A DNA stretch of 64,000 nucleotides from an uncultured Nitrosomonadales bacterium (GTDB lineage Bacteria > Pseudomonadota > Gammaproteobacteria > Burkholderiales > Gallionellaceae): assembly GCA_903915035.1 (NCBI GenBank), contig CAIWRI010000135.1:1-64000 (forward strand). The letters are read 5' to 3'. Every line of letters starts with the position of its first letter. The stretch's first letter is position 1. The notes beneath the pieces are model-generated. The model was not told the origin of the DNA, did no database searches, and was given only the letters and a program-made list of their open reading frames with translations. Made by a program: the position numbers and the translations under genes. Below are positions 2,466 through 47,153 of this stretch, one piece after another.

Positions 2466-3858
<1,393 letters not shown>

Positions 3859-3866
<8 letters not shown>

Positions 3867-22522: not shown

Positions 22523-22638
22523 ATTTCGGAAAAGGTGATGGTAATTGATGCGATTGAAGAGCCAAATAAATTATAAATAACTCTTTTCAATTTATTGGTT
22601 TATAGTAGCCGCGCGCTCCAAAATTCAGGAGCTTGCAA

Positions 22639-22823
22639 GTCCGCAGCAGGCCGTCTCACGTCCCGCACTGCCGTGGCAATGTCCGCCGCATAGCGAAACT
22701 GGTTCGCACATACCGGCGGCAGGTCCGAATGGCGGCGGTGGATGTTCCAGTGGCACCGGAAACAGTCCAGGTGGAGCCGGAAGAGGTCCGGACGGCTCCG
22801 AAAAATCTTCCGCCGAAAAACTG
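22639..22823. repeat. 21-bp tandem repeat array 1 (8 full units plus partial)
   Basis: Units start with GTCC/GTTC every 21 bp: gtccgcagcaggccgtctcac / gtcccgcactgccgtggcaat / gtccgccgcatagcgaaactg / gttcgcacataccggcggcag / gtccgaatggcggcggtggat / gttccagtggcaccggaaaca / gtccaggtggagccggaagag / gtccggacggctccgaaaaat. Confidence 0.9.
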
Positions 22824-22871
22824 TTTTTTAATTTAAAATCAATAAGTTAAACGAATAATTTTTTAAACATA

Positions 22872-23101
22872 GTCCGCTATAAACCATTTGACGTCTGCGA
22901 CAGACCGAATACAGTCTGCAACAGGCCATTAGAAGTCCGCAACAGACCAGTGAACGTCTTAAACAGACCGAATAGAGTCAGATATAGATAAACAAGGTCT
23001 GAGACAGACCGAATACTGTCCCGGACAGACCATTCGAAGTCCGCGACAGACCGAATACAGTCCGCAACAGACCATTTGAGGTTCGACACAGGCCAGTGAA
23101 G
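22872..23101. repeat. 21-bp tandem repeat array 2 (11 units, one 20-bp)
   Basis: Units such as GTCTGCGACAGACCGAATACA / GTCTGCAACAGGCCATTAGAA / GTCCGCAACAGACCAGTGAAC; one unit (GTCAGATATAGATAAACAAG) is 20 bp. Confidence 0.95.
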
Positions 23102-23255
23102 TGCAAAACCGTCCGATTGAATCATGGCGCGGGCAATGAAAATCAGCAGCATGGAATTAGTAACTTAATATCAAGCAGGGCAATGTTACACTCGCATCAA
23201 ATCAAGGCGAATATCCGATTTTAAATTCTAAATTTAATTATTCAAGGAGATTGCA

Positions 23256-23363
23256 ATGCCTAAAGCCAATTTTGTACCCGATGCGGATCATGATTTTATG
23301 GTCTGGTTCGGCCATCTTATTACCAACCTGACGCCTGACATGCACAAAATGGCAGCCCCCTAA
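23256..23363 (+). pseudogene. Short ORF downstream of 21-bp arrays, apparently truncated small protein
   Basis: SD AAGGAGATTGCA then MPKANFVPDADHDFMVWFGHLITNLTPDMHKMAAP* (35 aa); stops abruptly. Confidence 0.55.
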
Positions 23364-27666: not shown

Positions 27667-28137
27667 TCCCTTTGAATTCGGTCTTACCAAAGTTGCACTT
27701 CAGAGTTGAATCCGCCCAGCAATATCATTCATTCGCATTAAAAACAACCTCGCCGGTGGCAGACCCGCCGCAAATCCGCAGGGGTATTTTACGATACGCA
27801 AGGATCATCGCAATAAAAAGGCAACCACGACGTTTTATTGCGAGTGCGCAACATCAGTTGATAAGACAGCCAAAATTCGGGACCACCCTTGCTGCATTGA
27901 TGCTGTCATCAGTTTTTTATACCTTCACAAACCAGCATAACCGCGACACAAACTTCGCCAAAAAATTCAAAATTTTCCCTGCGCTAACAAAAAGTTACAT
28001 AGGCCATTTGGCATATTGTTTTACAAGGCTCGCAGACGTATTGTGAAGACCGTTTGAAGGATGCACCTTAGTCCGCTCAAGCTGAGACAGGGATAGTTCC
28101 TGTAAATTCTTTTCACTCACGTTAAGGAGATGATGTC

Positions 28138-29007
28138 ATGTCAGAATCAGTTACCAGATTTGGTTGGCTACCCGACTTTCCCAGCATTCAGGATTACACC
28201 GTTGAACATGCCAGGATCAAGCCGCTGCTTGCCAAGGTCAACCGCACAGCTCCAGCCACGCTGCCCGTCAGTGTGGATTTGCGCACCTGGTGTTCGCCGA
28301 TTGAAAACCAGCTCAATCTGGGTTCATGCACCGCCAATGCGGGCGTCGGCATGGTCGAATATTATCAGCGCCGTGCCTATGGCTATGATATTGATGCCTC
28401 TCGCCTGTTCCTCTACAAAGCGACCCGCGATTTATTGAAGTCAACCGGCGACACGGGCGCTTTTTTACGCACCACAATGGAAGCACTAGTACTGTTCGGT
28501 GTACCACCGGAAGAATACTGGCCGTATGTGGTCGCCAATTTCGACATCGAACCCAGCGCTTTTTTATATTCTTTCGGACAAAATTATCAAGCATTGAATT
28601 ATTACCGGCTTGATCCGGCAGGCACAGCCAAACCGACTTTGCTGAATGCAATTAAATCCAATCTGGCTGCGGGACTGCCTGCCATGTTCGGTTTCACGGT
28701 ATACAGCTCCTATACCCAGGCCAGCGTCGCCAACCAGGGAGCGTTCCCTTATCCTGCCGCCGGCGAAAAAATTGTCGGCGGACACGCGATCATGGCGGTC
28801 GGATATAACGACACCATACAGATCAAAAATACCGCAGTCGGCGCAGTTGCAACCACAGGCGCCTTGCTGATCCGCAATTCCTGGGGAACCAGCTGGGGCA
28901 ATGGCGGCTACGGCTGGCTACCCTATGCCTACGTGCTGAACGGATTGGCCACCGACTGGTGGGCGCTGATCTCCGCAGAATGGGTAGACACAGGCAAGTT
29001 TGGCTAA
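28138..29007 (+). CDS. Papain-like C1 family cysteine peptidase
   Basis: SVDLRTWCSPIENQLNLGSCTANAGVGMVEYY (Cys), GGHAIMAVGYND (His), LIRNSWGTSWGNGGYGWLPYAYV (Asn); no obvious signal peptide. Confidence 0.88.
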   Translation: MSESVTRFGWLPDFPSIQDYTVEHARIKPLLAKVNRTAPATLPVSVDLRTWCSPIENQLNLGSCTANAGVGMVEYYQRRAYGYDIDASRLFLYKATRDLLKSTGDTGAFLRTTMEALVLFGVPPEEYWPYVVANFDIEPSAFLYSFGQNYQALNYYRLDPAGTAKPTLLNAIKSNLAAGLPAMFGFTVYSSYTQASVANQGAFPYPAAGEKIVGGHAIMAVGYNDTIQIKNTAVGAVATTGALLIRNSWGTSWGNGGYGWLPYAYVLNGLATDWWALISAEWVDTGKFG

Positions 29008-44425: not shown

Positions 44426-44678
44426 TATTCTTCCTTACTATTTATCCGGAAAATTCATTAATAAAAAACCGGTAAGTTTGCTGTCAAAGCGGACAAATCC
44501 AACTTTAGCTGTATTTATCAAGGTATCCGCAAGCGAATTCTTAAACCGGCGCGGTTCAAAAGTAACACCCGCCACCTCACACTGTCAATCTGCTGCATGC
44601 AATTTATTGCGTCTATACCTTTCGGCCTATATATATTTTGGTCTATTATTTTATTGAAGCCGTGCGCTCAGAATGCAA

Positions 44679-44846
44679 GTCGTGGCGGTGCAGTATTTCT
44701 TCTCTGCATTTTCCCGACAGCAGAATAAGCGAAATAGAATGGGTGTCAGGCAGGAATTGAAGGGTATCCCGCGAAAATCGAGGAGCATTCCTCAGGAGTC
44801 GGGGAACATCTGACAGGAAACAGGGAGCATAAAGAAACATCCGGCA
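44679..44846. repeat. Degenerate 21-bp tandem repeat array 3 (8 units)
   Basis: 21-bp units such as ggtgtcaggcaggaattgaag / ggtatcccgcgaaaatcgagg / agcattcctcaggagtcgggg / aacatctgacaggaaacaggg / agcataaagaaacatccggca; the minus-strand ORF has a 7-residue period (FLSDVPR LLRNAPR FSRDTLQ FLPDTHS). Confidence 0.75.
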
Positions 44847-44920
44847 GTATAAAAGCAGCAATTAATTCTATCGTACGCCTATAAAATCCGTATTATAATG
44901 TTTTTTTAAGGAGATTGATC

Positions 44921-45497
44921 ATGGCGACTAAGAGCTACCTGCCCAAAGACGATAGGGGCAAGCTGGCATTGCTTAAGCATTTTTCAGCAAATTTATCCGC
45001 GTATGTCGCTAATTTTGGTATCAGCACGAAGACGCAGGAAAGGCTGAACGCGGATACTGCCGCTTTTGATTATTCAGTTACCCGGCAGCAGCAGAGGCAA
45101 AGCGCACAAATGGACTGCGTATAAAAATCAGCTGCGCGATGGCGGTACGGGTTCGGCTAGCTGGCCGGTTGAGATTCAAAGCGATCAGGCCATCTCCCTG
45201 CGGTCAGCCCCGGCATCATGGTGCCTCTGTCCACATTGGTTGCCGGCATTAAAGGGCCGTTACAGTGCGAGTCATCCTATTGTCTGCTGAATCAAGGGCG
45301 AGGCTGGCGCGATTGAGATCTGGGTGGACAGGGGTAATGGTTTTGCATTTTTCACCATCAATATCGAACCCGATACCATTAATAAAACAGCGTTGCCGGC
45401 GATGGGCGCTATCTGGAAATACAAGGCAATTTACCGGCTGCATGATGAACAGGTCGGTCAATGGAGCGACGTCTTGAACATGCCGCTCAGTGCCTGA
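44921..45497 (+). pseudogene. Decayed small protein gene (fibronectin-like C-terminal half) downstream of 21-bp array 3
   Basis: SD AAGGAGATTGATC; MATKSYLPKDDRGKLALLKHFSANLSAYVANFGIS... then, in changing frames, KAHKWTAYKNQLRDGGTGSASWPVE, PGIMVPLSTLVAGIKG, GAIEIWVDRGNGFAFFTINIEPDTINKTALPAMGAIWKYKAIYRLHDEQVGQWSDVLNMPLSA*. Confidence 0.75.
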
Positions 45498-45788: not shown

Positions 45789-47153
45789 ATGAACGTACCG
45801 CAGCTAGAAAATTCCGACCATAAACACCCGCCCGCGCAAGTTTTACTGTCCGACGCTTTTGGGTACTGGTTCAAACTTGGCTTGATCAGTTTTGGCGGGC
45901 CTGCCGGACAGATTTCCATGATGCATCAAGAGTTGGTTGTGCGTCGCCGCTGGATTTCCGAGCACCGTTATCTGCATGCGCTCAATTTCTGCATGCTGCT
46001 GCCGGGACCTGAAGCCACCCAGCTTGCGATATATATCAGCTGGCTGATGCATGGCGTACGCGGCGCGGTCGTTGCAGGCGTTCTGTTTTTCATGCCGGCT
46101 TTCGTGCTTTTGTCATTGCTGGCGGATCTCTACCTGAGTTACGGCACGATGCCTGCGGTACAAGGGATTTTTTACGGCATTAAACCCGCCGTTGTCGCCA
46201 TGGTACTGTTTGCCGCCTGGCGCATTGCTGCCCGGTCAATTACAAACAAACTATTATTTGCGATTGCAATACTGGCATTCGCCGGGATTTTCTTTTTTAA
46301 AATTGGTTTTCCCTGGATTGTGCTATCTGCTGGCATTTCGGGTGCCATCGGCGGTAAATTAATGCCTGACAAGTTTAAAGCGCAGGCAAATCACGCTGCC
46401 GGCAGTAAAACTTACGGTCCCGCCTTGATCGACGACGATACGCCTCCGCCGCTTTATGCGAAATTTAGCTGGTGGAAACTGACGCTCACCACAATGATTT
46501 TTATCGCAATATGGCTGACAGCCATGTTAATTCTGCGCGACCATGCTGAAGATGGAAATCTTTATGATATGGGGATCTTCTTTAGCAAAGCGGCTTTCCT
46601 CACCATAGGCGGCGCTTATGCCGTACTGCCTTATGTCTATCAGGGTGCGGTTGAGCATTTCAACTGGCTCAGTGCGTCCCAGATGATGGATGGTCTGGCG
46701 CTGGGAGAGACCACGCCCGGACCGCTCATCATGATCGTAACCTGGGTAGGTTTTCTGGGAGGTGTCGCCCGGCATTCCTTTGACTATCCTCTTGTCGCAG
46801 GACTTGCCGGCGCGGCGGTGGCCACTTTTTTTACCTTTTTACCCTCCTTCTTTTTTATTCTGGTCGCAGGCCCCATCGTCGAATCGACACGCGGCGAACT
46901 CAAATATACTGCGCCGCTTACCGCAATTACCGCCGCTGTTGTGGGCGTGATTATCAATCTGGCTGTCTTTTTTGCCTGGCACACCTTTTGGCCCAAAGCG
47001 TCTGTGGCTTTGCCTTTCGCAGGCCCCTTTAATGCAATACCGTTAATCATTGCCGTTCTGTCGTTTATTGCACTTTGGAAATACAAAGTGGACGTCATGA
47101 AATTGATCGGCGTTTGTGCCATCGTGGGTCTTGGCTGCTCCTTGATTGTTTAA
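45789..47153 (+). CDS. chrA: Chromate efflux transporter
   Basis: YWFKLGLISFGGPAGQISMMHQELVVRRRWISEHRYLHALNFCMLLPGPEATQLAIYISWLMHG; second repeat FSKAAFLTIGGAYAVLPYVYQGAVE. Confidence 0.94.
   Translation: MNVPQLENSDHKHPPAQVLLSDAFGYWFKLGLISFGGPAGQISMMHQELVVRRRWISEHRYLHALNFCMLLPGPEATQLAIYISWLMHGVRGAVVAGVLFFMPAFVLLSLLADLYLSYGTMPAVQGIFYGIKPAVVAMVLFAAWRIAARSITNKLLFAIAILAFAGIFFFKIGFPWIVLSAGISGAIGGKLMPDKFKAQANHAAGSKTYGPALIDDDTPPPLYAKFSWWKLTLTTMIFIAIWLTAMLILRDHAEDGNLYDMGIFFSKAAFLTIGGAYAVLPYVYQGAVEHFNWLSASQMMDGLALGETTPGPLIMIVTWVGFLGGVARHSFDYPLVAGLAGAAVATFFTFLPSFFFILVAGPIVESTRGELKYTAPLTAITAAVVGVIINLAVFFAWHTFWPKASVALPFAGPFNAIPLIIAVLSFIALWKYKVDVMKLIGVCAIVGLGCSLIV

Follow-up and report, generated by a model that had tools for sequence, protein, structure and literature searches.

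Repeats that accompany bacterial genes have been described in several settings. Type III toxin–antitoxin loci (ToxIN, CptIN and TenpIN) are compact, horizontally spread units in which tandem repeats of about 34-48 nt lie directly upstream of a single gene. Plasmid iterons and the partition centromeres parC and tubC consist of tandem sites about two helical turns apart, upstream of a gene and with locus-specific sequence. REP/BIME and MITE-type repeats are dispersed, intergenic, palindromic and multicopy. In Beggiatoaceae, short direct repeats of a conserved heptamer, TAACTGA, precede genes that vary; they are patchy over Gammaproteobacteria and Bacteroidetes, and a post-transcriptional role has been proposed for them (PMC4679880).

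Each of these partly resembles a gene cassette found in a Gallionella-group genome and its relatives, in which a promoter, an array of 21-bp units, a Shine-Dalgarno sequence and a gene for an acidic protein of ~225 amino acids follow one another in that order. Like a type III locus, the cassette sets tandem repeats before a single gene, but the repeats are 21 bp long, unrelated between loci and without an RNA signature, and the protein is predicted to be helical with an FN3 domain rather than an endoribonuclease of the ToxN-type fold. The spacing recalls iterons and partition centromeres; the cassettes, however, are chromosomal, dispersed and off plasmids, and their protein has no known DNA-binding or Rep/ParR domain. 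REP families share sequence genome-wide, whereas the arrays do not, and most arrays have a downstream gene. Set against the TAACTGA repeats (PMC4679880), the arrays keep a period instead of a sequence, and the gene that follows belongs to one constant family. No conserved heptamer was found in the arrays, whose unit consensuses are unrelated between loci; nor do they show the identical repeats and unique spacers of CRISPR, being continuous 21-bp units without spacers. Arrays locked to 21 bp were not described in the open-access literature searched. It is our judgement, not a result, that the combination of features tested here is unmatched by any known kind.

A decayed cassette beside metZ

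The window, the whole 64,000-nt stretch of DNA analysed, belongs to a 3.16-Mb genome in 155 contigs whose group name comes from named neighbours. At 44.6-45.5 kb, with metZ on one side and a chromate-transporter-like gene on the other, lies module 2, a decayed member of the dispersed cassette family. Its left edge is placed at 44609: by blastn, the sequence upstream of metZ in the nearest relative (L163) can be aligned up to 44608 and no further. The elements that follow read on the forward strand. An operator-like palindrome found by pattern search, CTATACCTTTCGGCCTAT (44613-44630), has two mismatches to the genus-wide motif ATAGRCC-N4-GGYCTAT. The leader behind it (44631-44721) is 85% identical to a copy on contig C114; a consensus promoter scan of this leader gave no match, and the other copies make it likely by analogy that a promoter is present though degenerate. 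The tandem array (44722-44862) comprises about 6-7 diverged units of period 21. Its best 100-bp lag-21 identity is 0.54, where dinucleotide shuffles give 0.35 ± 0.026 (z = 7.2); that value was unmatched by any lag across 200 shuffles. A Shine-Dalgarno sequence, AAGGAG (44908-44913), then precedes the start codon ATG 44921. The small gene that had been predicted here does extend to a stop codon ending at 45497, but it is really a frameshifted pseudogene of the ~225-aa helical and FN3 family (44921-45497), recovered by the family profile in pieces at 44921-45253, 45096-45194 and 45237-45485, with stops inside the first.

The metZ neighbourhoods of relatives do not contain module 2. Where it was covered in those genomes, the metZ-purF gap is short or holds other genes, and the chromate-transporter-like gene (45789-47153) was not seen near metZ in the four relatives read. 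Within the pseudogene, positions 45377-45409 match a CRISPR repeat family in Rfam at 24.6 bits, below the gathering score of 39; this match is probably due to chance.

Module 1, also on the forward strand, has the same layout. A -10-like TATAGT (22601-22606), common to the copies on contigs C15 and C117, is followed by an array of about 20 period-21 units with a diverged middle (22697-23130; TRF 22893-23073), which gives a lag-21 z of 8.1 against shuffles over 22.7-23.1 kb. The Shine-Dalgarno sequence AAGGAG (23245-23250) precedes a gene cut to its first ~35 codons (23256-23363; MPKANFVPDADHDFMVWFGHL...), which resemble the start of the intact C117 gene (L008). The original prediction that both loci carry a 21-bp array, with units that differ between them, is borne out. 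Its near-identical Shine-Dalgarno sequences are both present, but such a match is generic. The claimed alignment of the two leaders did not survive: it is marginal (P = 0.0025 in a loose alignment), its score was equalled by 3/456 same-strand window tiles, which may include tiles holding these very sequences, and the similarity is gone once the closest paralogues are aligned, namely C114 (closest to module 2) against C15 and C117 (closest to module 1), with P of 0.22-0.74. Leader homology between the modules was accordingly rejected.

The cassette family, its promoter and its spread

The two occurrences in 64 kb are both real, but two is too few: a profile search of the host genome returned 24 gene matches, of which some are fragments of a single copy, and there are arrays without a gene in addition. 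Searches with DNA and protein found many more copies in this genome, and other hosts have 1-37 family matches per genome. Named relatives, found through searches seeded with proteins of this genome, include Gallionella, many Methylococcales (Crenothrix and Methylobacter included), Zoogloea, Thiodictyon, Verrucomicrobia and Bacteroidetes. The family is nonetheless patchy, present in 5/76 genomes of the genus, this one counted, and in this one only among 369 genomes of a class-level sample. It was absent from the viral contigs, plasmids and phages searched, with no match in 72,556 plasmids, and a plasmid, phage or viral element was set aside. Most hosts are metagenome-assembled genomes, in which arrays break assemblies. 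Contigs C11, C97, C99 and C76 (L084, L090, L091 and L095) break off some 90-160 bp away from the cassette promoter; further contigs start or stop within arrays. As the repeats seem to have broken the assembly, copy numbers are lower bounds.

Movement is visible in a related genome, in which one contig carries two copies with unrelated flanks and 98.7% identity over 793 bp. The left edge that they share is some 10 bp ahead of the operator, and one copy is cut within the gene at its right end; the pair shows recent spread or duplication. The suggestion of a real, mobile or multicopy unit thus holds on this and the searches above, although the shared-leader argument originally offered for it fails. 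C11 and C97 likewise show no difference over the stretch that begins 6 bp ahead of the operator and lasts until the contig ends, but homology between C11 and C48 reaches further left, so the left edge is not strictly fixed.

Gallionella copies have a common promoter ahead of the array, ATAGGCC-N4-GGCATAT followed by TTGTTT-N17-TATTGT or TATTAT, which looks like a regulated, sigma-70-like promoter. Most Gallionella arrays lie between this promoter and the gene, an order plain in several copies, in what is likely a transcribed leader; in C142, an exception, the operators stand between array and gene. An IS200/IS605- or REP/RAYT-type element would have fixed ends and a terminal hairpin recognised by a Y1 transposase; left edges of the copies do lie near an imperfect palindrome, but this is itself a genus-wide promoter element. 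It occurs before other genes and in relatives without the family, where TAGGCC-N4-GGCATATTG is found up to 11 times per genome (G448, G027, G009 and others). From these occurrences we read the operator as part of the host's own regulation, of which the cassettes make use, and an element-specific terminus was rejected on the same grounds. An uncharacterised regulator is implied by the motif. In the window, a perfect operator, ATAGGCCATTTGGCATAT (27999-28016), and a promoter with a 17-bp spacer stand ahead of a papain-family (Peptidase_C1) gene (28138-29007), which suggests that this gene and the cassettes may belong to a shared regulon.

Intact genes on other contigs have 203-245 codons. An AlphaFold model of the protein (pLDDT 88.7, pTM 0.56) places helices at the N-terminus and an FN3-like domain at the C-terminus, and the better Foldseek matches are restricted to the FN3 part. 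Searches of Pfam, NCBIfam, PHROG and PADLOC assigned no family, PDB sequence matches were weak only, and domain searches recognised no nucleic-acid-binding domain. With no PADLOC match, identity as a defence gene was dropped. The median pI is 5.9 and, together with the lack of a known domain, makes it unlikely that the protein binds its own array.

Period and unit sequence of the arrays

The period is locked across unrelated sequences. Upstream of the gene in named relatives, the best lag was 21, 42, 63 or one less in 36/42 cases, where about four would be expected from equally likely lags; copies fetched later gave 21 or a multiple in 31/39, or 28/35 after removal of four already seen. In 242 kb around named loci, 34/37 period-21 segments lay upstream of a family gene; periods 19, 20, 23, 25 and 26 had no segments, and periods 15, 18 and 27 had 8-10, the pattern expected of codon-based repeats. 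The pairing of array and gene recurs in three phyla. Wider censuses, with detection thresholds of the analyst's own choosing, covered 1.2 Mb of a relative and 0.89 Mb of the host genome. In the former, an array stood at each of the five family genes or fragments, and five other period-21 segments lacked a family gene and appeared by eye to be coding low complexity. In the latter, 18 period-21 segments compare with at most five for any other period of 15-39; some five of these segments consist of 7-bp repeats, and among the others are several arrays that lack a gene or are cut by a contig end. No array was detectable at L053, L241 or L242. Tracts of TAGTGAG and ACTTACT face each other beside a murA-like gene at 3712-3866 in the window (also 2365-2459); similar 7-bp tracts occur elsewhere in the genome and by eye form a class separate from the 21-bp arrays.

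When 53 arrays were segmented, 562/589 unit spacings were 21, with 24 of 20 and three of 22; the segmentation penalises other spacings, and these exact counts lean to 21, a bias from which the lag tests are free. The unit sequence, by contrast with the period, is free: consensuses are common to close homologues and unrelated between subfamilies or loci. AGGTAT is shared by L075, L076 and L079, TCACRTGA by Zoogloea and relatives, and cores like GAGCRCTC recur in several other arrays. Array length has a median of 306 bp (range 122-739). In L018 (C142), L016 (C99) and L017 (C11), later units reverse-complement earlier ones, forming a long inverted repeat.

How the array may act

Tentatively, we favour a reading of module 2 as a decayed copy of a cassette whose array controls the gene as a DNA-level platform, phased at two helical turns, within a transcribed leader. 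Dyads are enriched in the arrays, significant (P < 0.05) in 21/48 where about 2.4 are expected, and lack RNA-strand asymmetry, which favours double-stranded DNA as the form in which the array would act; we infer that it does so. Two turns of B-DNA span 21 bp, so the often palindromic site of each unit, or its bend, would face the same side of the helix. This would allow cooperative binding by a dimeric or architectural protein, or wrapping of the leader by it, and transcription across the array would be held back. Such a protein would be supplied by the host, given that the cassette's own is acidic and that no nucleic-acid-binding domain can be recognised in it. With helical phase constrained and sequence not, each array would be free to diverge and to become uniform around a unit of its own. 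Several findings sit awkwardly with this DNA platform: the other 27/48 arrays have no significant dyad, the order in C142 is different, some copies lack arrays, and gene-less arrays persist in the host genome. In a wedge model, random units are predicted to bend most at period 21 among periods 18-25, which speaks for the platform, but real arrays were no more curved than column-permuted ones; selection for added curvature was rejected on this result, which also leaves curvature and same-face binding inseparable here.

An unlikely alternative, though one with points in its favour, is that the transcript is the active form: its array would fold into repeated hairpins, or serve as an antitoxin-like RNA or a sponge, and so control either the downstream gene or what that gene encodes. 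The arrays lie in a likely transcribed leader, and repeats before one gene are the layout of type III toxin–antitoxin loci. ATG is depleted on the sense relative to the antisense strand (ratio 0.76, 95% interval 0.65-0.89, corrected for composition), which would fit a transcribed leader; this is supporting and not decisive, since other trinucleotides are likewise uneven between the strands. Both strands also fold better on average than shuffles (z about -3.4 and -3.2), but the sense strand has no advantage over the antisense strand, folding better in 24/48 arrays. Mismatches within dyads are G.T in 116 cases and A.C in 115, an equality that disfavours RNA pairing. Base-composition skew was not significant, Rfam gave nothing at gathering score, and units are unrelated between loci. 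With no strand asymmetry, an indirect test, the repeats do not behave as the structured RNA of type III systems, and an RNA-structure reading was rejected.

Equally doubtful is the proposal that the array serves copying, integration or homogenisation of the cassette, with any effect on the gene incidental. It draws on the recent duplications, on left edges that lie within 4-12 bp of the operator, on a 3′-truncated copy, on a dispersed, multicopy and phylogenetically patchy distribution, and on arrays that outlast lost genes. Yet the palindrome at the edge is the promoter element found genus-wide, C11-C48 homology runs leftward past that edge, neither a terminal repeat nor a plasmid or phage carrier was identified, and a period that is locked while the sequence is free would be left unexplained.

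Much less plausible is a neutral minisatellite, grown by slippage and hitch-hiking upstream of the gene. Units homogenised within arrays and different between them, and arrays shared by duplicated copies, are what slippage would leave. It would not account for a single period in unrelated sequences from three phyla when neighbouring periods scarcely occur in the same DNA, nor for a constant placement ahead of one family of genes. That 21 bp encodes seven codons of heptad-repeat peptides is scarcely credible: some arrays are open, such as the heptad repeat in L098 and L099, but no reading frame is maintained through the arrays, fully open frames (10 sense and 6 antisense among 47 arrays) being no commoner than in column-permuted arrays (7.8 and 8.4), one-base contractions make up 24/589 spacings, and several arrays hold units in both orientations.

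The cassette is widespread and was unnamed before, and its array suggests a type of DNA-level leader element that has gone unrecognised. What defines most cis elements is their sequence or, in RNA, their structure; in these arrays a period is conserved across phyla and the sequence is free. With somewhat more reserve than attaches to the DNA platform itself, we suggest that the array may be a sequence-free, geometry-coded cis element: a transcribed leader array in which only the two-helical-turn repeat is conserved, which acts through DNA phase and not through sequence or RNA structure, and which travels in a mobile cassette together with a single, undescribed family of proteins in Proteobacteria, Verrucomicrobia and Bacteroidetes. 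The arrays are a likely reason for assembly breaks in host genomes, and the cassettes add a dispersed, multicopy protein family outside all the libraries searched. Regulation by helical phase alone would be directly testable in culturable bacteria such as Zoogloea.
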